Assembly: GCA_009908745.1 (NCBI GenBank)
Contig: JAAAOU010000100.1
Coordinates: 1-41,120 of the forward strand
Source: Bacteroidota bacterium
Lineage (GTDB): Bacteria > Bacteroidota > Bacteroidia > Chitinophagales > Saprospiraceae
Reading direction: 5' to 3'
Length of the DNA: 41,120 nt
Shown: positions 4,152 to 35,629 of the stretch, piece by piece
Layout of the letters: the number at the start of each line of letters is the position of its first letter
Position numbering within the stretch: position 1 is the stretch's first letter
Notes under the pieces: model-generated
Databases searched by the model: none
What the model was told of the DNA's origin: nothing
What the model saw: only the letters and a program-made list of their open reading frames with translations
Position numbers and translations under genes: made by a program

Positions 4152-4514
4152 ATGAACGAGCATTTTGTCCGCTCCAAGATCGAAAAGCTGGAAACCGAAC
4201 TCAAACCCTACCTGGAGGTGATGGGCAAAGCCGCCGATGCTATACTCGACCAAAATGTGAGTTTATACCCCATCTTTGTGGTCCATCAGCATACGGTGGA
4301 TATTGGCCTGCCGCTGATCGAACGGGAAGAAGGCGGTGCCAACTGGTCTGTGAATGCCACCACACTGGAGGAGCTGGCTACCAAGAAGATCGTGGAAATG
4401 AGCAAAGTGGAAAACTTCAAAGAGGTGTATAAAGACCCCCACGATCAGCTCTGTCTGTTTGTACTGAGCGACTTGGGGGCCAATTTCGTGTTCATCCCCC
4501 GTTATATAGTCTGA
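4152..4514 (+). CDS. Conserved hypothetical protein, 120 aa, ending inside a repeat element
   Basis: Starts at an ATG 63 nt after rlmD. The product is small, soluble and acidic, without signal peptide or membrane segment; a helical N-terminus (NEHFVRSKIEKLETELK) is followed by a mixed alpha/beta body. I do not recognise a functional family. Its last codons and the TGA stop (4512-4514) lie inside the left terminal repeat of the 163-bp element at 4505-4667, so the final residues (YIV) come from the element and the original C-terminus may have been longer or different. It may be co-transcribed with rlmD. Confidence 0.72.
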   Translation: MNEHFVRSKIEKLETELKPYLEVMGKAADAILDQNVSLYPIFVVHQHTVDIGLPLIEREEGGANWSVNATTLEELATKKIVEMSKVENFKEVYKDPHDQLCLFVLSDLGANFVFIPRYIV

Positions 4515-4667
4515 CAACCCGAAATTTGTGAATTCTGACTTGCTCTTTTTCCGCCTTGCTGCGTTGGAAAGCCTCGACAGAACTTAGGCTATGCCTACGT
4601 TTTCCGCCTTGCCAGCCGAAAAAATAGCGGCGTCATATTTTCACAAATCCTGAGTTGTCAGACTATA
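4505..4667. repeat. 163-bp palindromic MITE-like element, copy A
   Basis: Bounded by perfect 14-bp terminal inverted repeats: TATAGTCTGACAAC at 4505-4518 and its reverse complement at 4654-4667. The imperfect palindrome extends about 35 bp inward on both sides, and a TAGGC-TAT-GCCTA hairpin sits near the centre. The reverse complement aligns end to end, without gaps, with copy B at 35467-35629 (about 84% identity by hand count). There is no room for a transposase, so if mobile it is non-autonomous. TA at both edges is compatible with a TA target duplication as in IS630/Tc1-type MITEs, but the ends are ambiguous. Confidence 0.85.
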
Positions 4668-4927
4668 AGCAGGTTAGGGCAAGTCTCGGTCCCGAAATCC
4701 GCCCTCAGCGAAAGCCTATCGGACGCTTAAAAGGCACCACAAAGCTAGAAACTGCTACATTGCTGCGGCAAAACCAAACAGCCACGGTGGCCTTTCTGCA
4801 CCACGCCTAAGCGTTCATCCGCCACGCCTCACCCGGCAGTTGACTATTGCACGACCAACTTTACCGCCCATTAATGGTGGATTTTCGCAGAAGCTATTAT
4901 CTTTAGGAGGATAAAAAACTGAGCACC
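4668..4927. other. Intergenic region after copy A, no gene seen
   Basis: 260 bp with no plausible ORF, tRNA or other RNA gene. TATCTTTA at 4898-4905 is one base from the Bacteroidota -7 consensus, and AGGAGG at 4905-4910 is an unusually good Shine-Dalgarno for this phylum; both probably serve the receiver-domain gene that follows. Confidence 0.5.
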
Positions 4928-5296
4928 TTGAAGAAAATTCTTATTTGCGAAGACGAAGAGATCCTGCTTACCGCGCTCAAATTCCGTTTGCAGAAGCAAG
5001 GCTACGAGCTCACCCTAGCCGACGATGGGGAAAAAGCTCAAAAGCTGATCAAAGACGAAAAACCAGACTTGGTGGTGACTGATATTGATATGCCAAAAGT
5101 CTCGGGTATTGAACTTGTAGATTTTCTACGGCAGGATATGAAAAAAGCAACCCCTATAGTGCTGATCGCCCCCATGGAAAACGATGACCTTATCATGGAA
5201 GCCATGAAAAAGGGAGCAACCGACTTTGTGACCAAACCGTTCAAGCCGGTGGAGCTGGTGCTTCGCATCCGCGCTATTTTCCAGAATGAAGGGTAA
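4928..5296 (+). CDS. Single-domain response regulator (CheY-like receiver)
   Basis: A 122-residue stand-alone receiver domain with no output domain. It has the acidic pair E8/D9, the phosphoacceptor D52 in VVTDIDMP, and K103 in VTKPF. The conserved Thr/Ser of strand beta-4 aligns with A81 (VLIAPMEN), which is atypical and should alter the phosphorylation switch. There is no ATG at the N-terminus: TTG at 4928 gives MKKILICEDE, while in-frame CTG at 4919 sits 8 nt after AGGAGG (4905-4910) and would add three residues. It is 44 nt upstream of rmlA on the same strand and could be co-transcribed; no histidine kinase is nearby. Confidence 0.88.
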   Translation: MKKILICEDEEILLTALKFRLQKQGYELTLADDGEKAQKLIKDEKPDLVVTDIDMPKVSGIELVDFLRQDMKKATPIVLIAPMENDDLIMEAMKKGATDFVTKPFKPVELVLRIRAIFQNEG

Positions 5297-5340
5297 GCCC
5301 ATAGTACGACGCTATCCTCCTAACAAAAACCAATATTTAC

Positions 5341-6204
5341 ATGAAAGGGATCATTTTGGCCGGTGGCTTGGGTACACGCCTTTACCCGCTTACGCTCGCG
5401 GTGAGCAAACAACTGATGCCGGTCTACGACAAGCCCATGATTTACTACCCGCTTTCTACACTGCTGTCAGCGGGGATCCGCGATATTCTGATTATTTCTA
5501 CCCCCCACGACCTGCCTAATTTCGAAAAATTGCTGGGTGACGGCAGCCAAATCGGTTGCAACTTTTCTTACATCCCGCAGTATGAGCCCAACGGCCTGGC
5601 GCAAGCCTTTGTGCTTGGGGAGTCTTTCATTGGTGACGATGCCGCCGCCCTGATTCTCGGGGACAATATTTTCCACGGTGCCGGGTTGGGCCAATCCCTG
5701 CAGGAAAGCACCGATCCGGATGGCGGGGTGGTGTTTGCGTATTGGGTAGCAGACCCGGAGCGCTACGGTGTAGTAGAGTTTGATGAAAGCTTCAACGCTT
5801 TATCCATAGAGGAGAAGCCTGCCCGGCCAAAGTCGCACTATGCTGTACCGGGCTTGTACTTCTACGACAATAATGTGATCGAAATTGCCAAAAACCTCAA
5901 GCCCAGTGCCCGGGGGGAGTACGAAATTACGGATGTCAACAAGCATTATCTTGCGGCGGGGCGGCTAAAAGTAGGGGTGCTCGGCCGCGGGGTGGCTTGG
6001 TTGGATACCGGCACCCACAAGTCCCTCATGCAGGCCGGGCAGTTCATCCAAGTCATCGAGGACCGGCAAGGGCTGAAGATTGGCTGTATTGAAGAAGTCG
6101 CTTACGAAAGGGGATTCATTGACGCTGAGCAATTAGAAAAACTGGGGCATCAATACCTCAAAAGCGGTTACGGCGAGTACCTGCTGAATTTGCTGAAGCA
6201 ATAA
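5341..6204 (+). CDS. rmlA: Glucose-1-phosphate thymidylyltransferase RmlA/RfbA
   Basis: Catalyses dTTP + glucose-1-phosphate to dTDP-glucose, the first step to dTDP-L-rhamnose and related surface sugars. The 287-residue length is normal for the family. The nucleotide-binding signature [11 protein letters not shown] begins at residue 8, followed by K23 and [23 protein letters not shown] carries the metal-binding Asp, and [10 protein letters not shown] and the EYEITDVN segment are RmlA hallmarks. No rmlB, rmlC or rmlD is in the window. The 3' end overlaps the convergent glycosyltransferase gene by 47 bp. Confidence 0.96.
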
Positions 6205-7258
6205 GCCACCTTATGGCCGCTTCGACCTTACTGTCCTCTTGATGTGCCGACAGCCCGCCTCGGCGCTCAGCAGCAGCTATACCTTCTCGGAGATGGATGT
6301 CCCCTTGCCGCTGTACGGCAGCCCAGCCTTGCTTAAAGAGCCGGCTTGCTAAGTACTCCTGTTCGGTTTGGCCCGGCGTAGGGATGAGCAGCACGCGTTT
6401 GCCCATTGCCGAGAGGTCCATTAGGCTGCTGTAACCGGAGCGGCACACGACTACCCGGGCTGCTGCCAATAACTGCCCCAAGGCTTCGCTTCCTAGGTAA
6501 TTGTAAATGGTCAACCCCTCCGAAACCTGCAGTTGCTCTCCCACCATAGTCCCTCTTACCAGCACCTTGCGGCCCGCTATTGCCCGGAGCTGCGGCAATA
6601 GCTCCTTTTCCAAATAGGTCCGCTGCGGCTCGGGGCCCGACAGTAGGGCGAGTACGTCTATAGGCTCAGATGCCGGGTTTCGGCTTTGGTTTGTAAAACG
6701 GGATAGCAGCCCGAGATGGCGATAGGCCAAACCCGCCGGCGGGACCGAAAGTGCCCCGCTAAGACTTTCTTCCCCTGCCCTGTCGGGTATCCAGCATTGA
6801 TCGTAGCGCTTCAGCAAGTAGTGGTTCAGCGTATTAGCCAGCCTAGTCAGTACCGGCACCGGCGTCCGCAGCTGCAATTGATGGCTGAGAAAGATACTAG
6901 GCACCGCACTCGACCAACAGCCAAACCGGTTGTCGGACACTATAGCTTGTATATGGTGGGTTGCAATCAGCCGCTGTATCTTTCTATGCTCCATTATCGT
7001 CGCACGCGCAATCTTAGGCAACTGTATAGCCATGTTAGCCACCATGTTCTGATAGGGGTACCGGATATTGTAGGCCGGCAACTCGATGTACGGGAGCGCC
7101 GGCAACTCCTGCTGCAAGTAGTGCCCGGCATCGCCCGCCGAAGCAACCACCGGCAAGGCGCCCTGCCGACAAGCCTCCTGTATGAGCGGCAAGCTCCGGG
7201 TCGCGTGACCCAGCCCCCAATCGAGCACGGCAAATAAAATGCGGGTTGGCTGCTCCAC
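6158..7258 (-). CDS. GT-B family glycosyltransferase (MurG/GT28-like)
   Basis: 366 residues starting at GTG (7258); no ATG lies upstream near the conserved N-terminus [20 protein letters not shown]. The N-terminal Gly/His-rich loop and the C-terminal segment [19 protein letters not shown], followed by [14 protein letters not shown], match the donor-sugar binding region of MurG-like and UDP-GlcNAc transferase-like GT-B enzymes. No membrane segment is evident. It probably builds a cell-surface glycan or glycolipid, consistent with rmlA next door. The gene runs convergently into rmlA with a 47-bp overlap, so the last 15 or so residues are antisense to the rmlA end. Exact donor and acceptor are unknown. 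Confidence 0.8.
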
Positions 7259-7276
7259 TGCGAATCCTTATCTTTG
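7246..7276 (+). promoter_or_regulatory. Bacteroidota-type promoter of the small lipoprotein gene
   Basis: TTG at 7246-7248 (-33), a 20-nt spacer, then TATCTTTG at 7269-7276, a full match to TAnnTTTG. The ATG follows 14 nt later, so the leader would be very short. The promoter overlaps the start of the divergent glycosyltransferase gene. Confidence 0.6.
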
Positions 7277-7290
7277 AGTAAAAACAGTTT

Positions 7291-7434
7291 ATGCCCAAAA
7301 TTAAATACTTTGCGCTGCTTCTAGCCTTGATGGCAACGCTTTCTGCCTGCAAAACCCTCGACTGCGGATGCCCGATGAGCGAAACAACACCCGAGCGAAT
7401 AGATGCTAGGCCGCCCGTTACGGTGACGAAGTAG
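7291..7434 (+). CDS. Small lipoprotein, 47 aa
   Basis: A short ORF that translates to a lipoprotein signal peptide: MPKIKYFALLLALMATLSAC, with the lipobox LSAC placing the lipidated Cys at residue 20. The mature part is only about 28 residues, with a CGCPM motif and a Pro/Thr-rich tail. A strong consensus promoter directly upstream supports it as a real gene. Its function is unknown; the Cys-Gly-Cys-Pro-Met sequence might bind a metal, but that is speculation. It would be anchored in the inner or outer membrane. Confidence 0.7.
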   Translation: MPKIKYFALLLALMATLSACKTLDCGCPMSETTPERIDARPPVTVTK

Positions 7435-7624
7435 GCCATAAACCAATTTTTTGACTGTTTTTTGCTCGGGTCTACCGCGTACAGCCCTCTTATTTTTGAC
7501 AATCTCTTCTTTCGTATTTAGTGTTTTATAAATATGAAGTGCTAACCCTTTTGTTTACTTGCGCTTCACCTAACCCAGTGTGCCGCTCACCTACATATTG
7601 CCTTGACAAATCCCTTTTTTTGTA

Positions 7625-7656
7625 TTTGCTTGCCCCTCGCTTTGCCGGTATGTTTG
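7625..7656 (+). promoter_or_regulatory. Consensus Bacteroidota promoter of the PepSY-like lipoprotein gene
   Basis: TTTG at 7625-7628, a 20-nt spacer, then TATGTTTG at 7649-7656: both boxes fit the Bacteroidota sigma consensus TTTG / TAnnTTTG. The predicted transcription start is near 7663, leaving a leader of about 57 nt before the ATG at 7720. Confidence 0.65.
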
Positions 7657-7668
7657 CAGTGTAGTTAA

Positions 7669-7685
7669 GCCGATAGACTATCGGC
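7669..7685. promoter_or_regulatory. 17-bp palindrome, possible operator in the 5' leader
   Basis: GCCGATAG-A-CTATCGGC is a perfect inverted repeat of 8 bp around one central base. It lies a few bases downstream of the predicted transcription start of the PepSY-like gene, a position suited to a dimeric repressor or to an RNA hairpin in the leader. It lacks a U-tract, so it is not a standard terminator. Confidence 0.45.
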
Positions 7686-7719
7686 AATGCTCAATTTTTT
7701 AACCAACAATCAATTTGCT

Positions 7720-8802
7720 ATGAAAAAGATGATTTTCGCCGTACTTGGTATGGCTGCCTTACTGACCTTCAACAGTTGCGAACTGCTTGACACTTTCAAC
7801 GACAGTGATGACTCAAGCAATCCCTTTTCTACCGTACTCAACAACGATCTCGACTATAGCCCCTGCGAAGAGGATATCGACATCAGCTTCGATGCACTTC
7901 CTGATGCTATAGTCAGCTACCTGGAGTCCAACTACGCTGGATATGACCTCGACGACGTAGATGAATACCTCAGCGACGGTAGTCAGCGATTTGGCGTTGA
8001 GATCACTTATCAGGGGCAAGAACTAGAGTTGCTCTTCAGCGCCAATGGAGACCTGATCAACTCCGGAGTAGATACAGAGGATGTATATGTAGATGTCAGC
8101 CAACTGCCGCAAGCCGCTCTGGATTATCTGGACACCGAGTTCCCCAATGCGGCAATCGAAGAAGTCAGTATAGAAGTTGAATTTGGCTGGGAGTTTTTCG
8201 ATGTAGACCTCTCTAATGACGTCGACGTTTACTTCACCGCTGACGGCACCTTCGCCTGTAGCGAGGATGACGACGACGATGAGGGTGAGGATGACGACGG
8301 TAACGACGATGAAAGCGACGATGACGATGAGGGCGACGATGACGATGATGACGGCGACGACGATGACGAGGGCGACGATGATGATGACGGCGACGACGAT
8401 GATGACATCAACCTTCCAGAAGCCGCAGCAAATTACATAGAGAATAATTTCCCTGGCTACACCATCGATTATGTCGACCGGGAGGACTTTTGCGACGGTT
8501 TTGTTATAGAAGTTGAAATTGAGATGGGTTCTACAGACCGCGATCTGTACTTTGCCCTAAATGGCGACTTCTTGTTCGAAGCCGATGATATCAACATCAA
8601 TGACCTGCCACAGGCTGTTGCTACTACCCTTCAGTCTGAATACCCCAACTTCCAAATTGAAGATGCAGAAGTCTTGACGATGCCTGACGGCAGCAACCGC
8701 TACTGGGTGGAAGTAGAAAACGAAACCGATGATGATGATGATGACGAGTACGATGTAATACTCGAAGCGGATGGCACCATCGTTTGCAGCTTTGAAGACT
8801 AA
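7720..8802 (+). CDS. PepSY-like repeat lipoprotein with a long Asp/Glu tract
   Basis: 360 residues from the ATG at 7720; an in-frame ATG 33 nt upstream would spoil the signal peptide. MKKMIFAVLGMAALLTFNSC is a lipoprotein signal with its lipidated Cys at residue 20. The mature protein has four diverged units that begin LPxA and contain a pattern like YLExxFPxY...V...F...DGxF, as in PepSY-like (DUF2874-type) periplasmic proteins of Bacteroidota. Units start near 7894, 8107, 8416 and 8605. Between units 2 and 3 lies a tract of almost only Asp/Glu with some Gly, Asn and Ser (8263-8406), and unit 4 has a second short Asp run. The acidic tract could bind Ca2+ or other cations. It has its own promoter and probable terminator; its role is unknown. 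Confidence 0.82.
   Translation: MKKMIFAVLGMAALLTFNSCELLDTFNDSDDSSNPFSTVLNNDLDYSPCEEDIDISFDALPDAIVSYLESNYAGYDLDDVDEYLSDGSQRFGVEITYQGQELELLFSANGDLINSGVDTEDVYVDVSQLPQAALDYLDTEFPNAAIEEVSIEVEFGWEFFDVDLSNDVDVYFTADGTFACSEDDDDDEGEDDDGNDDESDDDDEGDDDDDDGDDDDEGDDDDDGDDDDDINLPEAAANYIENNFPGYTIDYVDREDFCDGFVIEVEIEMGSTDRDLYFALNGDFLFEADDININDLPQAVATTLQSEYPNFQIEDAEVLTMPDGSNRYWVEVENETDDDDDDEYDVILEADGTIVCSFED
8263..8406 (+). repeat. GAT/GAC triplet-rich low-complexity tract in a coding region
   Basis: About 48 codons, nearly all GAT, GAC, GAG or GGC, with overlapping imperfect repeats such as GACGATGACGA. It encodes the acidic linker of the PepSY-like lipoprotein. Such a tract can change length by slippage in multiples of three without breaking the frame. 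Confidence 0.85.
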
Positions 8803-8827
8803 CTAAATTGTTCCCTACCCCCCAAGG

Positions 8828-8858
8828 ACAGCCGCCCCTCAATTTTTGGGGTGGTTGT
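8828..8858 (+). terminator. Probable terminator of the PepSY-like lipoprotein gene
   Basis: ACAGCCGCCCC (8828-8838) pairs with GGGGTGGTTGT (8848-8858) to give an 11-bp stem with two G-U pairs and a 9-nt loop. A T-rich but interrupted stretch follows, including TTATTTT and CATTTTTT. It lies 26 nt after the stop codon. Confidence 0.5.
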
Positions 8859-9143
8859 TCCTTATTTTACCCCATTTTTTAGCGCGTATTCAAGCCTTGG
8901 GTAAAGGCCAACCCATTTTACGGGGAAATAAAAGGGCTTAAAGCGCTTAAAAAAGCACGATTAGAGTATGTTATAGTTTTAAACACCAATTACAAACTAC
9001 TGGTAAACAATTATTTATACCCACAAAACAAAATAAACCTAATACATAATTGATTTCCAACAAACCCAGCTTTAAAAATCCACCCTCACACCTAATTTTA
9101 ACACTTTTGCACTGATAAGCTCTTTTTAAGGGCATAAAGCAAA
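8859..9143. other. AT-rich convergent intergenic region, no gene seen
   Basis: Lies between the 3' ends of the lipoprotein and M1 peptidase genes. Apart from the two flanking hairpins I find no ORF with coding character, no tRNA and no repeat shared with the rest of the window. Confidence 0.6.
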
Positions 9144-9171
9144 AGAGGCCAGCCCGGAAGGGGCAGCCTCT
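9144..9171 (-). terminator. Rho-independent terminator, probably of the M1 peptidase gene
   Basis: AGAGGC and GCCTCT form the outer stem and GCCC/GGGC an inner stem around a short loop. On the minus strand the hairpin is followed by TTTTGCTTT, and on the plus strand by TTCATTTTT, so it could work in both directions. It lies 27 nt past the peptidase stop. Confidence 0.65.
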
Positions 9172-9197
9172 TCATTTTTCGCACAGCCGGACCAATT

Positions 9198-11537
9198 TTA
9201 GTTCGTCCCTTCTTCTTTGGCTTTCGCCCGGCGGGCCCGCTGCATCGGGTTTTCCCCGCCACCCCATCGGCTGCGGTTGCGTTTGTAGAGCTCGAAGCGA
9301 TTAAGCTGTGTGCGGGGTGGGTAGTAATTATCCTCCGTATCCACATCGGCCGTTTCCAGATACGGGTCTAGAACAATCTGCTGAATTTCTTTTTCCGTGA
9401 TAAACACTTTGCTCACCTCCTCGTGGTTGCGCCGCCAGATTTCTGCGGGAATGTAATGGTCTTCGGTAGAACCATCTGTAAACTGGAATTGCAAAATGAT
9501 CGGCATCACCAGCCCACCCTCGTTTCGGAAGCTCAGTTCGTAGTAATTCTGCCCAGCCTCCAGCAAAGCACGGCTGTCTTTATCCAGGCTGTTGAGGTAG
9601 CGCTCGTACTCCTCTTTATCCAGTATAGTCACTTTAAGCGGGTCGTATTCCGTATAAAAATCACGGATACTCGGGTCGATTTCGTCTTGTGTTTTGGAGA
9701 TCATCTGCTCATTGCGGATGCTGCTGATACCCCGCGGCGCTTCCTCCTGCATCTTGCGGGTACGCTCGTTTTCCACCAGGGGGTCTTGCGTATCCACCTG
9801 ATACCACGCTACGCTCTCCAAAGCGATGTCTACATGATCCGTGGTAAAAAACCAGCCCCGCCAAAACCAGTCCAAGTCTACCGCCGAAGCATCCTCCATA
9901 GTCCGGAAGAAATCAGCGGGAGAAGGGTGCTTGAACATCCAGCGGTTGGCGTAAGTCTTGAAGGCGTAGTCAAACAATTCACGCCCCATAATCGTCTCCC
10001 GCAGGATATTCAAGGCCGTGGCGGGCTTGCCGTAGGCGTTGTTGCCAAACTGCCAGATCGACTCCGAGTTGGTCATAATCGGGGAGATTTTATCCTTATC
10101 GCCCTTCATGTAATCGACAATTTTGTGGGCAGGCCCACGGCGGCTCGGATAGTTGCGTTCCCATTGCTGCTCCGTGAGGTACTGCAAGAAAGTGTTGAGC
10201 CCTTCGTCCATCCAAGTCCACTGCCGCTCGTCTGAATTGACGATCATAGGGAAGTAATTATGCCCTACTTCGTGGATGATCACGCCAATCATACCGTACT
10301 TGGTACGGGCAGAATAAGTGCCATCCTCCTCCGGTCGGCCGAAGTTAAAGCAGATCATCGGGTACTCCATGCCGATACTCTTCGCGTTGATAGACCAAGC
10401 GACGGGGTAAGGGTAATCGAAAGTGTAGTGCGAATACCACTTTAGCGTATGCGCAACGACCTTGGTCGAGTAGCGGCCCCAGAGCGGGTTGCCCTCCTTG
10501 GGGTACATCGACATCGCCATTACCACGCTGCCGTCGCTCTGCTCTACGCCCATCGCGTCCCAGATAAATTTGCGGCTAGAAGCGAACGCAAAATCGCGCA
10601 CGTTTTCGGCGGCAAATATCCAAGTCTTTTTCTTGGTCGACTTGTCTTGCTCATTCTTTCTTGCCTCTTCTTCCGACACGATAATGACAGGCTCGTCGCG
10701 CTCTTTCCTAGCTTCTTCCAGTTTTTCCCGCTGCGCTTTGGTCAGCACCTTCTCCGGGTTTTGCAGTGTACCCGTGGCGGACACGAGATGGTCTGCCGGC
10801 ACAGTTAGGCTCACTTTGTAGTCGCCAAACGGCAGGGTAAACTCCCCACGGCCGAGAAACTGCTTGTTCTGCCAACCTTCCACATCGTTGTAGACAGCCA
10901 TGCGGGGGAAGAATTGCGCGATGGTGTAGAGGTAGTTGTCATCTTCCTCGAAGTATTCGTAGCCGGAGCGCCCGCCGATTTCCATGCGGTTGTTGATATT
11001 GTACCACCATTTGATGTCGAAGCTAAGCTGCTCGCCCGGCATCAAGGGCTGCGGCAGATCGATGCGCATCATGGTTTTGTTGACCGTGTACGGTAGAGGC
11101 TGGCCAGAGGCATCCTTCACGTAATCAAGTTTAAACCCGCCGTCGAAAGTAGGGGTGAGGCGTTTAAGCTGCCCGGAGGACATACGCTCGTCCATGCCGC
11201 TCTGCTGTATCTTATAGGTATCCGAGTCTTTAGCCCGGCGGTTTTGCTCAAGCTGCACCCAGAGGTAGCCCAGCGGGTCGGGTGCATTATTGTGGTACGT
11301 AATGGTCTCCGTCCCGTAAATCCGCTGTTTCTCGTCGTCCAGCTCAATGTCAATCTGGTAGTCGGCACGCTGCTGCCAGTATTCGTGGCCCGGCGCGCCG
11401 GCCGCGTTGCGGTACACGTTGGGCGTGGGCAGCTCGTTGTACAGTTGCCTGAACTTGTTTTGGTTGGTGTTTTCTTGCTGCGCGTAGCCCACCAGGCACA
11501 GGCTAGCTGCAACGGCAAGGAGCAGTAGTCGCTTCAT
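9198..11537 (-). CDS. Secreted M1 family metallopeptidase (aminopeptidase N-like)
   Basis: 779 residues with a signal peptide (MKRLLLLAVAASLCLVGYAQQ). The zinc site is H422-E423-V-G-H426 with the third ligand E445 in WTWMDEG, the exact HExxH-18-E spacing of M1 gluzincins. Upstream, GMEYPMICF is the counterpart of the GxMEN exopeptidase motif. The N-terminal part resembles the M1 beta-saddle domain (YQIDIELDDEKQRIYGTETITY). A Lys/Glu-rich insert (about residues 265-305) sits inside it. It most likely trims peptides outside the cytoplasm. The start is supported by a promoter 27-60 nt upstream and the signal peptide. The C-terminus is basic and Arg-rich, with no evident T9SS tail. Confidence 0.94.
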   Translation of the reverse strand: MKRLLLLAVAASLCLVGYAQQENTNQNKFRQLYNELPTPNVYRNAAGAPGHEYWQQRADYQIDIELDDEKQRIYGTETITYHNNAPDPLGYLWVQLEQNRRAKDSDTYKIQQSGMDERMSSGQLKRLTPTFDGGFKLDYVKDASGQPLPYTVNKTMMRIDLPQPLMPGEQLSFDIKWWYNINNRMEIGGRSGYEYFEEDDNYLYTIAQFFPRMAVYNDVEGWQNKQFLGRGEFTLPFGDYKVSLTVPADHLVSATGTLQNPEKVLTKAQREKLEEARKERDEPVIIVSEEEARKNEQDKSTKKKTWIFAAENVRDFAFASSRKFIWDAMGVEQSDGSVVMAMSMYPKEGNPLWGRYSTKVVAHTLKWYSHYTFDYPYPVAWSINAKSIGMEYPMICFNFGRPEEDGTYSARTKYGMIGVIIHEVGHNYFPMIVNSDERQWTWMDEGLNTFLQYLTEQQWERNYPSRRGPAHKIVDYMKGDKDKISPIMTNSESIWQFGNNAYGKPATALNILRETIMGRELFDYAFKTYANRWMFKHPSPADFFRTMEDASAVDLDWFWRGWFFTTDHVDIALESVAWYQVDTQDPLVENERTRKMQEEAPRGISSIRNEQMISKTQDEIDPSIRDFYTEYDPLKVTILDKEEYERYLNSLDKDSRALLEAGQNYYELSFRNEGGLVMPIILQFQFTDGSTEDHYIPAEIWRRNHEEVSKVFITEKEIQQIVLDPYLETADVDTEDNYYPPRTQLNRFELYKRNRSRWGGGENPMQRARRAKAKEEGTN

Positions 11538-11570
11538 GAGTATTGGTTATGTTATACTAATCGGAAACCC

Positions 11571-11599
11571 CAAAAGTAGGGAAATCAACGGAAAGACAA
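11571..11599 (-). promoter_or_regulatory. Promoter of the M1 peptidase gene
   Basis: On the minus strand TTG (11599-11597), an 18-nt spacer and TACTTTTG (11578-11571) match the Bacteroidota -33/-7 pattern. The ATG at 11537 lies 33 nt downstream of the -7 box. Confidence 0.55.
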
Positions 11600-11643
11600 C
11601 AGTGGAAGCGCGCTCATGGTTTTGAGGGGACAGGGTTGCGAGC

Positions 11644-11661
11644 GTGTTCCACGTGGAACAC
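11644..11661. promoter_or_regulatory. parS-like ParB-binding site 1 (intergenic)
   Basis: The 16-mer TGTTCCACGTGGAACA (11645-11660) is a perfect palindrome, extending to 18 bp with one more pair. It matches the widely conserved chromosomal parS pattern TGTTnCACGTGnAACA; the C/G variant is the form used in Pseudomonas. It lies between thrC and the M1 peptidase gene. A second site is 373 bp away. Confidence 0.8.
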
Positions 11662-11678
11662 ACGCGCCGCAGACAAAC

Positions 11679-28360: not shown

Positions 28361-28363
28361 TTC

Positions 28364-28858
28364 CTACCACCCCCAAGTACCAGGCCCGCCCTTGAAAGGC
28401 CCAACAATTTTAGACGTAATCCAGCCGCCGTAGAAGTCGCCTTCTTGGGCTTGCACTTTTTCATCGCCAACGTAGCATTCATCCACTTTGCTGGGGTAAA
28501 AAGCCAAATAATCCTTAATGGGCTGAAAAGCAGCGGTAGGCTCAGGGTAACTCCAGGCTACACCGTTGATGTTTCGGTCGCCGATGCGGAGGTTCCAGTA
28601 GCGGGCTTTGCCTTTGAACTCGCAGTGGCTTTGGAACTTGGGGTCTAGCTTCAGGTACTCCATTTTGGCATCCTCCTGCGGGATGTAATATACCGGGGGG
28701 TGGCTGGTTTCCACCACACGGTAGCCTTTATTTGTGGAAGCTATGACTTCCCCGTTCACTTTGACGGTAAGGTGTGCGCTGACGGGTTCCAAACGCGGGG
28801 GGCGTGGGTAATCCCAAACGCTTTCCTGCCCTGCTTTGGGTTTTATTCGTTTCTTCAT
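28364..28858 (-). CDS. DUF427 domain-containing protein
   Basis: 164 residues. Features of the DUF427 family: VKVNGEVIASTNKGYRVVETSHPPVYYIPQEDA, then CEFKGKARYWNLRIGD and VAWSYPEPTAAFQPIKDYLAFYP. No signal peptide. Function is not established for the family. It is convergent with the antiporter gene (3 bp between stops) and divergent from the flippase gene. Confidence 0.88.
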   Translation of the reverse strand: MKKRIKPKAGQESVWDYPRPPRLEPVSAHLTVKVNGEVIASTNKGYRVVETSHPPVYYIPQEDAKMEYLKLDPKFQSHCEFKGKARYWNLRIGDRNINGVAWSYPEPTAAFQPIKDYLAFYPSKVDECYVGDEKVQAQEGDFYGGWITSKIVGPFKGGPGTWGW

Positions 28859-28938
28859 ATTCGCTTAACAGTGAAAGATGTCATTTGTTAGGCTTAGGCC
28901 AAAGCATTTTCGCGGCCGGTGCGCAATTGATTTTTACT

Positions 28939-28946
28939 TAGCTTTG
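28939..28946 (+). promoter_or_regulatory. -7 element of the flippase gene, possibly leaderless
   Basis: TAGCTTTG is a full TAnnTTTG match only 6 nt before the ATG at 28953. With transcription starting about 7 nt after the box, the mRNA would begin at or next to the start codon. No good -33 box is seen. Confidence 0.4.
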
Positions 28947-28952
28947 CAGCTG

Positions 28953-30446
28953 ATGTCGCTACTGAAAAAACTTGCCGGCGAAACCGCCATCTACGGCACG
29001 AGCAGCATACTGAGCCGGCTGCTCAACTTTGTCATTCTCACCCCCCTGCTCACCCGCGAGTTTGAGGAAGGCGGCTACGGCATTGTGTCTGACCTCTACG
29101 CTTGGGCGGCTTTGCTGATGGTACTGTTTACCTACCGCATGGAGACGACCTTTTTCCGCTTTGGCAACCGCAAAGAAGACTTAGAACGCAGCTACGCCAC
29201 CGCCTCCTTTTCACTCATCGCCTCCACCTCCGTTTTTCTTACCTTATTTTGGGTGCTGGCCCCCGAGGTTGCAGCATGGTTGCAGTACCCGGATCATCCG
29301 GAATACGTACGCTGGTTTGCCTTGATCATCGCCTTTGACACCCTGGCGGCTATACCTTTTGCTAGGCTGCGATTGGAAAACCGCCCGATTTACTTTGCTG
29401 TGGTCAAGACGCTGAATATTGTGGTCAATATTGCGTTCATCTACTTTTTCTTCCGGGTTTGCCCTTGGTTATCGGAACGGGGGTACGAGTGGGCTTCTGC
29501 CCTATTCCGGGAAGAATACAAAGTGGGGTATGTGGTCATTTCCAATCTTATCGCGAGCACGTCCGTGCTGCTGTTGCTCATCCCCGAGTACCGCAAGCTG
29601 CGTTGGCAATTCGACGGTGTGCTATGGCGGCGGATGATGCGGTACGCTGCGCCTTTGATCATCGTGGGCATAGCCGGTGTCATCAATCAGCTGGTGGGTA
29701 TCCCAATGCTGAAGCGCTTTGCGTCGGATGACCTCAACTACAATTTGGCCATGGCGGGCACTTACGGGGCGGCCGCCAAACTGGCTGTACTGATGAATCT
29801 GTTTACCCAAGCTTTCAACTACGCTGCCGAGCCATTCTTTTTCCGGCATTCAGAGCGGGAGGACAAGGCAACGGTCTACGCGCAGGTAGGGCAAGGTTTT
29901 GCGCTGGTAGGTAGTTTGGCTTTTTTGGGTATCATGCTGTACATGGATATTGTCAAGTACTATCTGGGGGAAGATTTGCGGGGTGGTATAGGGGTGGTGC
30001 CCCTGCTTCTACTGGCTTACTTGATGCTGGGCTTGTATTATAATTTCTCTATCTGGTATAAACTGGCGGACCGCACGGGCATCGGGGGGTATATTGCTGT
30101 GGGCGGTTCCATCATTACCATCAGTTTGAATTACTGGCTGATTCCGGAGCAGGAATACATGGCACCGGGCTGGGCGGCACTGGCCTGCTATACCTTTATG
30201 GCGGGCATCAGCTACTGGACGGGGCAGCGGTACTACCCTATCCACTACCCGATTGGGCGGATGTTGACGTATATTTTGGTGGCAGTAGGGCTTTACGGCC
30301 TAAGCGTGTATACGGAGTCGGCTTTGCAACCAGACTTCTGGCCGGGCTTGGCGCTTAATACCATATTCATGTTGGTATACCTGACGTTTATTGCTTTGCT
30401 GGAGCGGGAGCAGTTGCGGCAGTTGGTAAGTGCATTCAAGGGGTAG
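28953..30446 (+). CDS. Polysaccharide flippase, Wzx/MATE-like (MOP superfamily)
   Basis: 497 residues from ATG 28953, where MSLLKKLAGETAIYGTSSILSRLLNFVILTPLLT is the classic Wzx N-terminus; the frame is open 75 nt further upstream but with no hydrophobic or conserved sequence. About 12-14 membrane segments throughout. It probably moves undecaprenyl-linked or similar glycan units across the inner membrane. No polymerase or glycosyltransferase adjoins it, but rmlA and a glycosyltransferase lie 22 kb to the left. It ends directly against the stop of the next, convergent gene. Confidence 0.9.
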   Translation: MSLLKKLAGETAIYGTSSILSRLLNFVILTPLLTREFEEGGYGIVSDLYAWAALLMVLFTYRMETTFFRFGNRKEDLERSYATASFSLIASTSVFLTLFWVLAPEVAAWLQYPDHPEYVRWFALIIAFDTLAAIPFARLRLENRPIYFAVVKTLNIVVNIAFIYFFFRVCPWLSERGYEWASALFREEYKVGYVVISNLIASTSVLLLLIPEYRKLRWQFDGVLWRRMMRYAAPLIIVGIAGVINQLVGIPMLKRFASDDLNYNLAMAGTYGAAAKLAVLMNLFTQAFNYAAEPFFFRHSEREDKATVYAQVGQGFALVGSLAFLGIMLYMDIVKYYLGEDLRGGIGVVPLLLLAYLMLGLYYNFSIWYKLADRTGIGGYIAVGGSIITISLNYWLIPEQEYMAPGWAALACYTFMAGISYWTGQRYYPIHYPIGRMLTYILVAVGLYGLSVYTESALQPDFWPGLALNTIFMLVYLTFIALLEREQLRQLVSAFKG

Positions 30447-30992
30447 TTACATCTTAGGCGTGCTGTGGAACACCACGAGAAAGCTGAGCATCATACGCAT
30501 GGGCAAGGGGACATCTGCCGGCAGTTCATCCACAATCACCCAGTCCCTAGGGTCTCCTTGGTAATACGTGTACATTTCAAACCAGCCGTGGCGGTCGCTC
30601 TGCAGCATCCACTCTTCGAAGAGGTTTTGGTATCTACAGCGCAGCGTGACGGTGTGCGTGCCATCTGTGACCCGCCATTCCCGGAAGTTGTTGCGGTAGA
30701 GCGTGCGGGCAGTAACGATATGGTTGTCGCCCCGGGCTTCCCACTGATTGGGGTTTTCTGGCCATTTGAGCTTGATGGTCCCGGCGGCTTCCCCGAGGCG
30801 GTAGCGCCATTCGGTCCAGTTGTCTTGCCCCTGCCAGATTTGAACGAGCTCGCCTTCCAGCTCTTCCGCAGCGGTAAGGATACGCCATTCTGTGAAGCTG
30901 TCGCCCCATCGTGTGCTCAATCCTGTAAGCACTTGCGCGCTCAGGCTTAGTGGCAGTAGGCAGCAAAGGAAGATGTAGATACGTCGTGGCAT
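30447..30992 (-). CDS. Secreted Trp-repeat protein, unknown function
   Basis: 181 residues from ATG 30992, giving the signal peptide MPRRIYIFLCCLLPLSLSAQ; an upstream start would put 19 extra residues ahead of it. The mature part is a series of short units with a shared core of the type (D/N)xFxEWR: DSFTEWRI, DNWTEWRY, NQWEARG, NNFREWRV, NLFEEWML, GWFEMYTY and DPRDWVI, alternating with beta-like stretches. This suggests a small beta-repeat fold exposed in the periplasm or outside. I do not recognise a named family. Convergent with, and abutting, the flippase gene. Confidence 0.72.
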   Translation of the reverse strand: MPRRIYIFLCCLLPLSLSAQVLTGLSTRWGDSFTEWRILTAAEELEGELVQIWQGQDNWTEWRYRLGEAAGTIKLKWPENPNQWEARGDNHIVTARTLYRNNFREWRVTDGTHTVTLRCRYQNLFEEWMLQSDRHGWFEMYTYYQGDPRDWVIVDELPADVPLPMRMMLSFLVVFHSTPKM

Positions 30993-31113
30993 GTAGGAAA
31001 TGGCTCGTTCTGGTATAAAATGCGACGGGACGGAATTTATTGCATACAAAAACCTGACAGCGGCAGCTCTGCGCCACTGTCAGGTTCTGATATGATCCGC
31101 TTGCCAGCCCGCT

Positions 31114-31488
31114 TTAGAACGGCAGGTCATCGTCGGCTTCCGCTGCCGGCTCATCGTCGGCGGAGGGGAAGGTGTCGTCGGAGGCAGGAGGGGTCGCGCT
31201 CGCGGTTGGTGCCGCTTGCGCTTGCCCAGCTTGCTCCAGACGCCAAGCGTTGAGGTTGGTGAAATACTTGCCATTCCACTCACGGCCCCGCAGGTCGAAG
31301 TGGACTTTGATCATCTGCCCTTCTTCAAAGGGGTCGAGCAAAGCACAACGGTCCTGCACCAACTGGAATTTTACGAGCTGTGGATAATTACCTTCGGTCT
31401 CGACCACGAAATCGCGGGCCTGAAAGGTCTCCGTCTTGCTTTCGGTGTCGAATTTTTTATGGAGTTTTCCTTCTACTTCAAATGACAT
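31114..31488 (-). CDS. DUF3127 protein with SSB-like acidic C-terminal tip
   Basis: 124 residues from ATG 31488 (MSFEVEGKLHKKFDTESKTETFQ); a TTG 39 nt upstream is an unlikely start. Residues 1-85 match the DUF3127 fold known in Bacteroidota, likely OB-like: FVVETEGNYPQLVKFQLVQD and IKVHFDLRGREWNGKYFTNLNAWRLE. After a flexible Ala/Pro/Ser linker it ends DDEPAAEADDDLPF, strikingly like the DDDIPF tip by which single-stranded DNA-binding protein recruits repair enzymes. That suggests a DNA or RNA-maintenance role, by inference. Confidence 0.85.
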   Translation of the reverse strand: MSFEVEGKLHKKFDTESKTETFQARDFVVETEGNYPQLVKFQLVQDRCALLDPFEEGQMIKVHFDLRGREWNGKYFTNLNAWRLEQAGQAQAAPTASATPPASDDTFPSADDEPAAEADDDLPF

Positions 31489-31573
31489 AGCGCTGCTGTG
31501 GTTATTTTCAATTTTGAAAGTGTTCAAAAATACAAAAACATAAGGGGCTGGAAAAGAACTTGCCTAAAAACTA

Positions 31574-31620
31574 CTCACAGTGGGCAAAATCGCCCTTTTC
31601 CGCCTGTCCCTTACTGTGAG
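31574..31620 (-). terminator. Terminator hairpin downstream of the nadK operon
   Basis: CTCACAGT (31574-31581) and ACTGTGAG (31613-31620) form an 8-bp outer stem; GGGC/GCCC (31582-31595) may form an inner hairpin. On the minus strand the stem is followed by TAGTTTTTAGG. It lies about 85 nt beyond the stop of the 31703 gene and before the DUF3127 gene. Confidence 0.5.
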
Positions 31621-31702
31621 CACCATAACGGTTAATTATGGGGTTAGGTTTCCTCATCAGAAGGCCCCAAATACGGTAGGAGCCTACCAATAACCACAAA
31701 AT

Positions 31703-32359
31703 CTATCTATTTTCCCCCACGAACCCCTCCACCCGGCGCTCCACCCGCAGGCGGTGCAGCAGCACTCCCCCAAGCAGCGACAGGCAGCCGAACAAGAAGA
31801 TCCCATTCCGGCTCCACTCCACCGTTTCCGTATACATGGCGTAGAACGGCCGCACCAGCAGCACCTCCGCGCAAATGATCGCCGCCGCCAGTAAAAAGCA
31901 AAAGATACTGAGCGCCTTCGCCCGGTTCAAGAACAGGGGCTCCTTGCGGCGCAGGCATTTTTTCAGGAATAATATCGCGTCTTCGCGGTAAGGGTTGATG
32001 CGGATGAGCTCCCGCAGCACATAATCACAGCGGTCGAGCTCCACACAACGGTAGTGGGAGGCGGCTTTGCGGAAGAGCAGCTCCTCGAAGATATCCTCGC
32101 CGGCGTAGTACTGCACATTATTGTTGATAGCTTCTTCAATAGCGACGTCCACCATCAACAGGTGCTTTTGGTGAAAACCGACTTCAAACAGGCTGTTGAC
32201 GTAGGCGATCAGCATCTCAAAGTACTCATCAAAGTCCAGCCCCCGTATCTTGTCTTCCCGCTCCTCGTAGAAATGTATGATACGCCGGTAATTGTCGAAT
32301 TCAATCTCTTTGAAATCGCGGAAGGTCTTGGAATGGTAGGTAGACTGGTACAGCGGCAT
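31703..32359 (-). CDS. Membrane protein with helical N-terminal domain, unknown function
   Basis: 218 residues. The first 145 are soluble, helical and Tyr/Glu-rich, perhaps TPR-like (HYRCVELDRCDYVLRELIRINPYREDAILFLKKCLRR). Two membrane segments follow (about 150-170, LSIFCFLLAAAIICAEVLLV, and 185-202, IFLFGCLSLLGGVLLH) and a short basic tail. Last gene of the tight minus-strand operon with the BamA-like, nadK and cyclase genes; the start lies 2 nt after the cyclase stop. No known function. Confidence 0.78.
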   Translation of the reverse strand: MPLYQSTYHSKTFRDFKEIEFDNYRRIIHFYEEREDKIRGLDFDEYFEMLIAYVNSLFEVGFHQKHLLMVDVAIEEAINNNVQYYAGEDIFEELLFRKAASHYRCVELDRCDYVLRELIRINPYREDAILFLKKCLRRKEPLFLNRAKALSIFCFLLAAAIICAEVLLVRPFYAMYTETVEWSRNGIFLFGCLSLLGGVLLHRLRVERRVEGFVGENR

Positions 32360-32361
32360 AT

Positions 32362-33120
32362 CTACGTTGGTTCTAGTGAATACAGTACCGGCTTGCTAGG
32401 ACTTGCGTCGATTTCAAAGCTGGCGATCTGAATGTTCAGTAAATATAATCCATCTGGGATAGAATTGTTTACATAAATCAGCTCCGTGATGGTACTGTGC
32501 GCCCGGGTTGGCCCCGGATACTGCCAGAAGGTGTGGTGGGCAGCCAGTTCGCCCCCGTCTTCCTCCCGGTCCACAGAAGGCAGGTCTAGCAGCAAATGCT
32601 CTACGCCGCGCTCCACGAGGTAGGCAGCCGCCCCGTGGTGCAGGTAAGGCGGGTTGGCCCCGGAATGGTTGGTGCGCAATTTGAGCTCGTCGTTGGGCAG
32701 GGTACGCAAGACCAGTGCTTCGGTCGGCGCCGTGTCGGCCAGCAGTTCCTCCAGTTGGTGCCGGAAGACCACCCGGTCGCCCGCCGCCGTTTTCTCCGGA
32801 TACAGGCTGATGAGGCGCGCCGGGAAGTGGAATTGCTGCAGGCTTTGGTTAATGGTGTATCGCTCCTTAGCGATGTGGCCCACGCATTCCGTGTGGGTGC
32901 CGTTGCCGTGCACGTTGAATTTGATATTCAAAAAATTGAGCGGTCCGCCCTGCTGCGTGGACCCCACGAAGTCCCCCGCCACCACCGGGCTGGTCTCCAT
33001 GGGCGGCGCGTAAAAACAATTGACCGTCTCCAGCCCTTCCCGCAGCGGGATGCCGATGTCAAGGGGCTGCGCCAGGTCAGCCCGGTATGCCTGCCCCGCG
33101 ATGTCTACCGTGATTTGCAT
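32362..33120 (-). CDS. Cyclase-family metal hydrolase (kynurenine formamidase-like)
   Basis: 252 residues of the PF04199-type cyclase fold. The metal region reads FNVHGNGTHTECVGHI, a variant of the kynurenine formamidase motif HxGTHxDxPxH with N in place of the first His (a His lies one residue earlier), E for D and V for P. Other typical segments are DIGIPLREG near the start and LLLDLPSVDREEDGG near the end. Kynurenine formamidase activity is plausible, given kynU in the window and nadK directly upstream, but a different amide or lactone hydrolase is possible. It starts 3 nt after nadK. Confidence 0.8.
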   Translation of the reverse strand: MQITVDIAGQAYRADLAQPLDIGIPLREGLETVNCFYAPPMETSPVVAGDFVGSTQQGGPLNFLNIKFNVHGNGTHTECVGHIAKERYTINQSLQQFHFPARLISLYPEKTAAGDRVVFRHQLEELLADTAPTEALVLRTLPNDELKLRTNHSGANPPYLHHGAAAYLVERGVEHLLLDLPSVDREEDGGELAAHHTFWQYPGPTRAHSTITELIYVNNSIPDGLYLLNIQIASFEIDASPSKPVLYSLEPT

Positions 33121-33123
33121 AGT

Positions 33124-34008
33124 TTAAAAGTTTCGAGTGTCTGCCCCCCAGGCCAGTTTGCTGCGTATAGTATCCATAAAGGTGACGTCATTGAGGTGGA
33201 CCAGGCGGAGGCAAAAGTCATTCTTGCGCACCGCCAGCTGATGGGCAGCGGTAATGGTCTCGAAGCGGGAGTCGAGCGTGCACAGGAAATTTTCGGCCCG
33301 GCCCTCTATTTCAAAGGAGATCACCGCATCATCCGAGATGACGATCGGCCGCACATTGAGGTTGTGCGGGGCTACCGGCGTGATGACAAAGTTACCGGAG
33401 TTGGGGAATATAATGGGGCCGCCGCAGCTCAGGGAGTAGCCGGTAGAACCGGTAGGCGTGGCCACGATGATACCGTCCGCCCAGTACGAATTTAGGTAGC
33501 TGCCGTTGATAAAGGTATGGATGGTGATCATAGAGGAGGTATCCCGCTTGAGCAAAGTGCAGTCGTTGAGGCCAAAGCGGATTTCCCCGAAAATGGGCAA
33601 ATTCGATTCCATGTAGATCATCGTGCGCTCCTCGATGGCGTAGATGCCCCGTTTGAGTAAGCGCACCGCTTCGGTGATGCGCTTTTTCTCTATGCTTGCC
33701 AAAAAGCCCAGCCGCCCCAGATTGATCCCTACTATAGGTACCAGGCTGTCTCGGATATGCGTGGTGGCGGAGAGTATGGTGCCATCCCCGCCTAGCGTGA
33801 TGAAGAAGTCGAACTTCCCCTCGCGGATATCCACGTACCCGCCAAAACGGCCCACTTCAGCCGGAAAGCGGATGGTATCCTTGATTTGCTCCAAATAGGG
33901 AGAATAGACATAAGGCTTGATGCCCTCCTCGTGAAGGGCGTTGAAGAGGTGCTGTATATGTGGGACGTCCTTCTCTTTGAGGACTTTGCTGTAAATGACT
34001 ACTCGCAT
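33124..34008 (-). CDS. nadK: NAD kinase
   Basis: Phosphorylates NAD to NADP. The 294 residues contain the family hallmarks GGDGT (73-77) in FFITLGGDGTILSA, GINLGRLGFLAS, the LNDCTLLKRD stretch that takes the NE-motif position, and DGIIVATPTGSTGYSLSCGGP. Its ATG overlaps the BamA-like stop by one base (TAATG), and the cyclase gene follows after 3 nt, so it is in the middle of an operon. Confidence 0.96.
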   Translation of the reverse strand: MRVVIYSKVLKEKDVPHIQHLFNALHEEGIKPYVYSPYLEQIKDTIRFPAEVGRFGGYVDIREGKFDFFITLGGDGTILSATTHIRDSLVPIVGINLGRLGFLASIEKKRITEAVRLLKRGIYAIEERTMIYMESNLPIFGEIRFGLNDCTLLKRDTSSMITIHTFINGSYLNSYWADGIIVATPTGSTGYSLSCGGPIIFPNSGNFVITPVAPHNLNVRPIVISDDAVISFEIEGRAENFLCTLDSRFETITAAHQLAVRKNDFCLRLVHLNDVTFMDTIRSKLAWGADTRNF

Positions 34009-35429
34009 TATATATTCATGCTAAGGTGTAAAAATAAGCCATTTTCCAGTAAATCATTGACGCTGTATTCTATTCTTATGACTTTATCGAAAAACAGGAC
34101 GATGTCCAAACCCACACCCCCGCCCCATAACAAGCGGTTGTCCAGGAAGTTGTTCAGCTCTGCCGAGGCGTGTGGGCTGTTGACGTATCCAAAGTCGCTA
34201 TTGAAGGTAAGATGCAGGCGGAAGGGCATGTTCCGGAAAGCGCTGATCGGCATCAGTTTGCCGAAATTGATACCGCTGTCCCAAAAGCGGAACCGCAGGC
34301 TGGACTTCAACATCCCCATGTCCAGCCCGTCGATTATGTAGTATTCAAACCCTCTGAGGTTGGTGTCGCCAAAGCCGATCGCCCGGTTTTCCCGGTAGGG
34401 CTGCTGACTGCGGATCAGCGATACTTTGCCCCGGGCTTCCATGCCCAGGCTCCACCGCTCCCCAAACGGAAAGTACTGACCGTAGCCGGCAGTAAGCGTC
34501 AAGCCACTGCGCTCTTTCCAAATCCCCAGCCCTTCTTTTTCCAGCTCTGCCGACAGGAAAGAGCCTTCCCAGGGGTAGGGGGCGACATCGCGGTTTTCGT
34601 AAAAAAACTGGTAGCGCAGGGCAAGAAAGCGTTGCAAGTGCCGGCCGTTGAGGAAAAAGCGGGGGTTGAGGTCCTGCGCGACTTCCTTACCCACCCGGTT
34701 TTGGTGAAAGCGGAGGTTGAAGCGGTGGAAGGTTTGAATGGCCGGGCGGTAGACTGCCCCCAAATTGGCACTAAAGCGGTCCAGCATAAAAGCGTCCTCC
34801 CGCTCGAAAAAGGCTTGCTTGTTTTCCTCCGTCTGGTAGTTGACTTCCCGGTTGCGCAGAAAAGCCACATCGGCAGACAAGCCGAGGGTGCGGGCTTTAT
34901 TGACGTAAGGCATGGTGTAGGAAAGGGAGTAGCGCCGGGTGTAACCGTATTTTAGGGAAGCTTTCAGCCGGTCGTTGCGGCCCGAGACGTTGATATGGGC
35001 AAAGTCCATGCCGTAGTTCGTCCGTTTCAGGGAGCGGTTCTGCTCTACCCACCACACATTGAAGTTGCGGTCGGCCAGCTCGAAGATAGGGATGGGGTAG
35101 ACAAACCAAGTTTCTTCCACGGTCACCAGCAGGTGTACCCTTCCGGTGGCCCCTTCCCACGCTTTGAAGCTGATGCTCGCCCGGTTGAAGAGGCCCGTGT
35201 TGAGGATCATCTGCTCGCTCTGCTCAATGGCATTGGACAATTGGTCGACCGCTACCGTGTCCCCTTCGCGCAGGCTCATCTCGCGCAGGATGATTTCCGC
35301 CTTCGTCTTTTGGTTGCCTACCACGCTGATGCTGTCGATGTATACGCGATCTTCCCCATTGGCTGCCCAAGAGCAGCAATGCCCAAGCAGGCAAAGCGTA
35401 ATCGACAACAGGAAAATACGTGGGTGCAT
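34008..35429 (-). CDS. BamA/TamA-like outer membrane protein with one POTRA domain
   Basis: 473 residues. A signal peptide (about 1-22) is followed by one POTRA domain (about 28-105, VYIDSISVVGNQKTKAEIILREMSLREGD...) and a 16-strand-type barrel region with alternating aromatic residues and the surface-antigen segment FGDTNLRGFEYYIIDG. It is much shorter than BamA (five POTRAs) and resembles the single-POTRA BamA-related proteins common in Bacteroidota. Probably helps insert or export outer-membrane proteins or lipids. First gene of the operon with nadK; its promoter region is the gap of 37 bp plus the repeat element copy B. Confidence 0.9.
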   Translation of the reverse strand: MHPRIFLLSITLCLLGHCCSWAANGEDRVYIDSISVVGNQKTKAEIILREMSLREGDTVAVDQLSNAIEQSEQMILNTGLFNRASISFKAWEGATGRVHLLVTVEETWFVYPIPIFELADRNFNVWWVEQNRSLKRTNYGMDFAHINVSGRNDRLKASLKYGYTRRYSLSYTMPYVNKARTLGLSADVAFLRNREVNYQTEENKQAFFEREDAFMLDRFSANLGAVYRPAIQTFHRFNLRFHQNRVGKEVAQDLNPRFFLNGRHLQRFLALRYQFFYENRDVAPYPWEGSFLSAELEKEGLGIWKERSGLTLTAGYGQYFPFGERWSLGMEARGKVSLIRSQQPYRENRAIGFGDTNLRGFEYYIIDGLDMGMLKSSLRFRFWDSGINFGKLMPISAFRNMPFRLHLTFNSDFGYVNSPHASAELNNFLDNRLLWGGGVGLDIVLFFDKVIRIEYSVNDLLENGLFLHLSMNI

Positions 35430-35466
35430 CGGTTTGGGTTATCACTTGGTTTTGCAAACGCTGTTA

Positions 35467-35629
35467 TATAGTCTGACAACATGAGATTTGTGAAAATATG
35501 ACGCCGCTATTTTTTCGGCTATCGAGTCAAAAAACGTAGGCATAGCCTAAGCTACGGCGAGGCTTTTTGGCGAAGAGAGGCGGGAAAAGAGCAAGTCAGA
35601 ATTCATAAATCTTGCGTTGTCAGACTATA
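35467..35629. repeat. 163-bp palindromic MITE-like element, copy B
   Basis: Same length and the same perfect 14-bp ends as copy A: TATAGTCTGACAAC at 35467-35480 and the reverse complement at 35616-35629. It is inverted relative to copy A and aligns with its reverse complement without a gap. Differences cluster in the internal arms, while both ends and the central TAGGCATAGCCTA are conserved. It lies 37 bp upstream of the BamA-like start and may carry that operon's promoter or insulate it from the region to the right. Confidence 0.85.

Follow-up and report, generated by a model that had tools for sequence, protein, structure and literature searches.

The repeats closest to the element treated here are the Correia elements (CREE, NEMIS) of Neisseria, described in 1988. 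They are TA-ended, non-autonomous hairpins of about 105 or 155 bp. Both of their ends begin with TATAGT, as do those of the present element, a 163-bp palindromic sequence found in two inverted copies (copies 1 and 2) in the window, i.e. the whole stretch of 41,120 nucleotides analysed, which is contig C365 of a Bacteroidota draft genome (G000). Correia elements differ in that their terminal repeat is unrelated beyond TATAGT and that an additional stretch lies inside the 155-bp form. Promoter, integration host factor (IHF) and RNase III roles are described for them (PMC10969869, PMC2649163), and a 2009 paper gives the mobilising mechanism as undetermined.

ERIC sequences of enterobacteria (also termed IRU or RU-1) are likewise TA-ended hairpins, of 127 bp, with a longer inner hairpin than that of the window element. 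RUP of Streptococcus pneumoniae is a miniature inverted-repeat transposable element (MITE) of about 107 bp; its ends match those of IS630-Spn1 and it inserts at TA (PMC2229807). Thus mobilisation of short elements by IS630 belongs to a class of mechanism that is already known. Elements with this core resemble IS630/Tc1-mariner insertion sequences in their TA duplication and, in three sister subfamilies, in their ends; the window element encodes no transposase.

The two copies are read here as elements that lack a transposase of their own, are mobilised in trans by IS630/Tc1-mariner enzymes and are built around an old structured core, with a rough probability of 0.8. No earlier report of the shared core, of its fold, or of a link between Correia, ERIC and repeats of other phyla was found in the open-access literature, subscription papers being mostly outside that search.

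The element and its copies in the source genome

The features of the two copies are as follows. R1 is a covariance model of the core.

4505–4667, plus strand: copy 1, 163 bp with the duplicated TA counted in at both ends; its minus strand folds better
4505–4518, plus strand: left terminal inverted repeat of copy 1, TATAGTCTGACAAC
4654–4667, minus strand: right terminal inverted repeat of copy 1
4534–4636, minus strand: conserved core of copy 1 (R1 94.7 bits, E 2.1e-21; copy 1 is among the sequences from which R1 was built)
4558–4566, minus strand: 3′ loop strand of the core, copy 1, CAACGCAGC on minus and GCTGCGTTG on plus
4605–4612, minus strand: 5′ loop strand of the core, copy 1, GCAAGGCG on minus and CGCCTTGC on plus
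35467–35629, minus strand: copy 2, inverted, 84% identity to copy 1
35498–35600, plus strand: core of copy 2 (R1 72.3 bits, E 8.2e-16; R1 was built without copy 2)
35523–35575, plus strand: inner hairpin of copy 2 with a changed loop, divergent sub-lineage (CGAGTC on the 5′ side, GGCGAAG on the 3′ side)

The original prediction, made from the window alone, described a pair of equal length with the same 14-bp ends, and this is correct: both copies are 163 nt, inverted, 30,799 nt apart and alignable without gaps. It also placed TA on the outside of both copies. This was an error, as the duplicated TA is the outermost TA within the 163 bp. Both copies fold far better than dinucleotide shuffles (z = −6.8 for copy 1 and −8.2 for copy 2; none of 200 shuffles did as well). 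An Rfam search of window positions 4300–4900 returned no family: the sole match up to E 10 scored 10.5 bits, where the gathering threshold is 70.

The source genome is a 5.39-Mb draft in 541 contigs, 95.4% complete. As 40 of the 82 candidate places were scored, the numbers of copies given here are minima. The 163-bp query gave at least 67 rows in it, 41 of them forward places (30 full-length) and 26 weaker rows, most of which are these palindromes read from the other strand. Allowing two mismatches at most, the 14-bp end occurs 55 + 57 times, vs 7 + 6 for the reversed pattern. A repeat confined to the two window copies, with likeness limited to the ends, is therefore not what the genome displays, and with at least 30 full-length copies among at least 41 forward places the window pair is nothing special as regards the suggested inversion of the 31-kb segment between them. 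At least five full-length copies, counting copy 1, have 99% or greater identity to copy 1, which suggests recent activity. The same ends are also found on copies of 48, 110, 170, 175, 183, 187 and 196 bp.

The element is short and without a transposase, with terminal inverted repeats and at least 30 dispersed full-length copies, i.e. it has the properties of a MITE. The suggestion of a MITE-like or structured-repeat family is thus borne out by the many copies, the matching ends and a base-precise TA duplication at two loci (below).

Variation inside the copies was also seen. At nine loci (L008, L011, L012, L019, L020, L024, L030, L051 and L056) an extra small palindrome replaces part of the inner hairpin, in the forms TCCCGAT..ATCGGGA and TCCCGCTTTTT..AAAAAGCGGGA or TCCCGAAAGCATTCGGGA, as if hairpins were swapped inside hairpins. 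Nine contigs (C189, C205, C288, C310, C378, C389, C435, C447 and C363) start or stop within the element or at its edge, and the element therefore breaks the assembly.

Target-site duplication

Flanks outside the outermost TA display no common duplication among the copies of the source genome. At L009 (C506), joining the flanks with exactly one TA gives a 350-codon open frame across the junction; Pfam places DUF234 just below cut-off, C-terminal to the junction. L302 (C507) has other ends (TAGACATTATGAA) on the same core and interrupts an amine oxidase gene. When its flanks are joined with one TA the amine oxidase frame is restored (PF01593, 1.8e-41) and the best stretch spans the junction. The target duplication is thus TA, as seen in one copy of each of two subfamilies, and one genome carries two end types on one core.

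The conserved core

The core is a sequence of about 100 nt, CAAGGCG..stem-loop..CAACGCAG on the better-folding strand. It is conserved between phyla, whereas the ends vary. The 163-bp query has matches in 19 of 59 genomes (the source genome counted), and many of the cross-genome rows cover the inside only, e.g. positions 16–148, 24–140, 38–124 or 40–122. Twenty stretches from other genomes are palindromic elements with other ends, which include TATAGTTCTCCAAGGC (G001, G005), TAGGAATGCTAC (G036), CTAGTGGCGCGAAAT (G028), TAAGGGCCCGGAGAA (G006) and TATACTCCCCTCGGG (G004).

A gapped 24-letter core pattern is present in at least 117 stretches of the genome contigs, vs about 0.4 expected by chance (own arithmetic). 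Eighty of these loci were taken; L120 was excluded, being coding-like and without a surrounding palindrome. By their record titles the carriers include Clostridia, Gamma- and Betaproteobacteria, “Deltaproteobacteria”, Binatia, Acetobacteraceae, Opitutales and Bacteroidota. Phaeodactylibacter xiamenensis, a cultured species, is one of them. Among 27 loci with TA-to-TA ends matching at 15–16 of 16 positions, the span is 161–169 bp in 25, with several of the loci coming from a single genome as copies; L144 (131 bp) and L168 (224 bp) fall outside this range.

R1 matched 21 of the 395 genomes searched in the phylum to which the window belongs (the source genome counted). In the proteobacterial phylum of Sulfuriferula multivorans (G452, the genome of L187) the number was 136 of 398, this genome itself included. 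These scans used E 0.001 per genome with at most ten candidates scored in each, and the E-values are rough, being calibrated on random sequence. Genomes positive with R1 often hold several core copies.

The 163-bp query found no match in plasmids and phages, and the core pattern was present in one stretch of the viral contigs. In L258 (positions 5–109) the core is at the end of one viral contig, resembles L156 and scores 65.6 bits with R1. In L270 (G240:C1:477446-477812) three matches to the core follow one another as direct repeats, at intervals of about 121 bp. L265, L312, L314 and L322 each have two core matches within about 400 bp, on opposite strands in the first three, as if elements cluster.

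For the secondary structure, 111 core sequences were reduced to 44 representatives of less than 80% identity, and to 43 after L088 was dropped for its length. In these, 86.3% of cells are paired vs 65.8% when shuffled, and 45% when slid by one column; covariation is 0.524 vs 0.164. A second set of 44 matches, from 39 further loci outside R1, is 91.0% paired with a covariation of 0.725 vs 0.172; these matches were selected by the model and their alignment was fitted to it.

The loop is two-stranded, 5′-GC AAG GC G / C AAC GC A GC, with CAAGGCG opposite CAACGCAG. For most first-set sequences the pattern dictated its letters, but they are nearly invariant in the second set too.

Folded one at a time, all 43 sequences are more stable as the minus strand, although the shared loop makes these cases non-independent. 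RNAalifold gave −0.04 kcal/mol for the default plus-strand alignment; on a better alignment the values are −45.5 for minus vs −36.8 for plus. The idea that the plus strand is unstructured was accordingly dropped; that strand fits less well. The outer stem of the minus strand runs without a break and includes a column pair that is U-G in 25 of 43 sequences and another standard pair in 18 of 43. In the unfitted alignment there are 77 G-U to 24 A-C pairs (P = 1e-7), or 51 to 24 without the strongest pair (P = 0.002); the model-fitted alignment has 81 to 6. One strand thus suits the fold better, as RNA or as single-stranded DNA.

Relation to Correia and ERIC sequences

Correia elements were retrieved from viral contigs with a pattern for their ends. 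The lengths (107 and 155 bp here) and the core ends (CCGGTACGG, TCAGGACAA) are as described in PMC2649163. R1, which contains no Correia sequence, matches the Correia core with a best score of 42.2 bits (E 5.6e-8), in register, on the same strand and with the same loop. Six of eight Correia-bearing loci match R1 at E ≤ 0.02, and the same six match R2, a model built from the second set (41.9 bits). The two without an R1 match are L251, a short, internally deleted form, and L256, which is truncated. Correia elements are taken here to be related to the window element by their core. The description “uncharacterised” in the original prediction holds for the window subfamily, but its core is the one known from Correia elements.

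ERIC is probably a distant relative at best. R2, which contains no ERIC sequence, matches three plasmid ERIC copies when run unfiltered (25.5, 22.0 and 18.3 bits, E 8.7e-5 to 5.2e-3), on the right strand, with the next match at 9.1 bits. The ERIC consensus of E. coli contains GCTGCGTTG and CGCCTTGC exactly (PMC2759123). Two E. coli chromosomal ERIC copies, in both of which the loop is eroded, gave no match with R1 or R2; R1 was tried with these two chromosomal copies only.

Ends shared with IS630 elements

The search for the IS630 transposase domain PF13358 (DDE_3) covered 42 genomes; G003 has an end match only, and every other one matches the core. In three genomes the ends of the core-bearing element are those of a resident IS630. 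The G028 element end CTAGTGGCGCGAAAT has 15 bp identical to one IS630 end and one mismatch to the other, and a TAAGTTT block stands at equal spacing in both element and IS630. In G236, CTAGTGCTGCGTCAAG is identical over 16 bp to the end of the resident IS630 (one element was examined); six insertion sequence copies have the matching end, one of them at both ends and five with two mismatches at the other. In G820, CTAGTGTGGTGTTTCAGA has one mismatch in 18 at each end relative to the resident IS630 (one element examined), which encodes a 365 aa DDE_3 protein. Since these three ends differ from one another, the core has come together with IS630 elements on at least three occasions. RUP with IS630-Spn1 is the same kind of partnership; this likeness is by description, and no relation of cores is claimed.

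The original statement that no transposase fits is correct for the source genome as searched, which gave no PF13358 match, and fails for these three sister subfamilies. Mobilisation by IS630 is indicated by the shared ends in the sister subfamilies, and presumably applies to the window subfamily also.

IS630 ends that do not match the ends of the element were found in G001, G002, G005, G006, G019, G059 and G452. No clear IS630 ends were seen in G011, G161, G529 and G832, and only fragments in G004 and G455.

Other candidate partners were discarded. Among the places listed, the lone ends fetched in search of an autonomous copy with the window ends seemed to be truncated copies, chance matches or contig edges. 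The TATAGTTCTCCAAGG ends of G001 and G005 were set aside too; in G001, 24 of 25 such ends form 12 short pairs. L037 (C392 of the source genome, positions 1631–2184) is a half element joined to a transposase fragment that resembles the IS1634 type. This transposase was rejected as a partner: the genome has one broken copy and a 20-residue match.

Proposed mechanism and alternatives

In the proposed mechanism, an IS630/Tc1-mariner (DDE_3) transposase encoded elsewhere would recognise the ends and move the element. The folded single-stranded core, as RNA or as single-stranded DNA at replication, may aid persistence or spread through a widely conserved host factor. New subfamilies would arise when a core comes to carry the ends of a different IS630 element.

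Several observations weigh against this. PF13358 is present in 16 of 42 genomes, and the ends match those of the element in 3 of these 16, the comparison of ends being non-exhaustive. No partner was found for the window's own ends in the source genome or the genus members: there is no PF13358 match in the source genome, and the IS630 ends of G001, G002 and G005 differ. This absence is weak evidence, since draft assemblies of this sort frequently lack insertion sequences. Of the three copies with the second end type, two (L058, L059) have no clean TA on the right. No base-precise empty-site allele of copy 2 was found in three members of the genus, where the left gene aligns to 121–173 bp before the element and the right side is non-syntenic. 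With respect to the core, the plus strand folds too, like the complement of any hairpin, and 11 of 30 own copies fail the strict loop pattern. L007 fails it by one letter, and the other ten, copy 2 included, are changed on both strands. Pairs of 98–100% identity are present among the failing copies; therefore a lineage with a non-canonical loop has been amplified in this genome. Finally, neither the 34 own elements nor 79 others display an orientation bias to neighbouring genes.

The amplified changed-loop lineage and the patchy distribution (21 of 395 genomes in one phylum) are also what would be expected if the core were functionless, and the subfamilies descended from one element that spread recently between phyla, the ends changing with the transposase. 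This best-surviving alternative is nevertheless somewhat unlikely. The stem pairs are often changed on both sides while the loop letters are nearly invariant in matches selected by the model and not by the pattern, and the asymmetry of G-U and A-C also argues against it.

The core could instead be a cis-acting regulatory RNA element (a processing site, terminator or promoter) that the host keeps for its effect on neighbouring genes. The roles described for Correia elements (PMC10969869, PMC2649163) are of this type, and one gene starts close to copy 2. The neighbouring frames in the window are as follows.

4152–4514, plus strand: 120-codon open frame, no Pfam match, with its stop codon inside copy 1
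34008–35429, minus strand: Omp85/POTRA gene, with its start 37 bp from copy 2

On crude gene calls, the own copies are in the same/opposite orientation as the upstream gene in 13/17 cases and as the downstream gene in 12/18; for the other loci the counts are 37/29 and 30/33. This even orientation argues against a role in cis, and cis-regulation was rejected on these grounds. By a similarly crude call, 8 of the 79 other elements lie inside long open frames, and the distribution is patchy with recent amplification. Cis regulation is an unlikely cause of the conservation of the core, and as an account of the element it is improbable.

More doubtful still is the reading that the element is single-stranded DNA mobilised by an enzyme that recognises structure, e.g. 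an HUH transposase or an integron-like recombinase, in place of IS630. A strand-specific hairpin with unpaired loop bases would suit such an enzyme, and PF13358 is lacking in 26 of the 42 carrier genomes searched, but the TA duplication and the ends held in common with IS630 in three genomes are contrary to it. That the likeness between phyla is due to chance, long palindromes resembling one another, is scarcely credible: every member is indeed a palindrome and the model E-values are rough, but the excess of the 24-letter gapped pattern over expectation, the low scores of a few unrelated hairpins in E. coli loci (at most 9.1 bits with R2) and the strong covariation all speak against it.

Other features of the window

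A direct repeat of 133 bp, 95% identical, is present at positions 35744–35876 and 39017–39149, near genes with secretion-signal domains. At positions 8252–8419, short GAC/GAT/GAG-rich repeats encode an acidic stretch within the open frame 7687–8802.

Significance

MITEs are usually viewed as decayed insertion sequences of which the ends are kept and the middle is arbitrary. The window element reverses this picture, in that the middle is conserved and the ends are exchanged. A wider reading, which is tentative and falls short of even odds, is that Correia, ERIC and many unnamed repeats belong to one bacterial superfamily of mobile structured hairpins, either ancient or repeatedly transferred between phyla. 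Its inherited unit would be the strand-specific core, a functional RNA or single-stranded DNA motif that is read by a near-universal host factor and spreads by adopting the ends of whatever IS630 is available.

If the picture of a conserved middle with exchanged ends is true, Correia sequences, and perhaps ERIC, would belong to one family present in about one third of the proteobacterial genomes sampled, and IS630 would be a testable candidate enzyme. There would also be a widespread structured nucleic acid, unrecognised by the Rfam search, that needs a binding partner. Repeats that were thought to be unrelated, including the Correia repeats, may then belong to one family.

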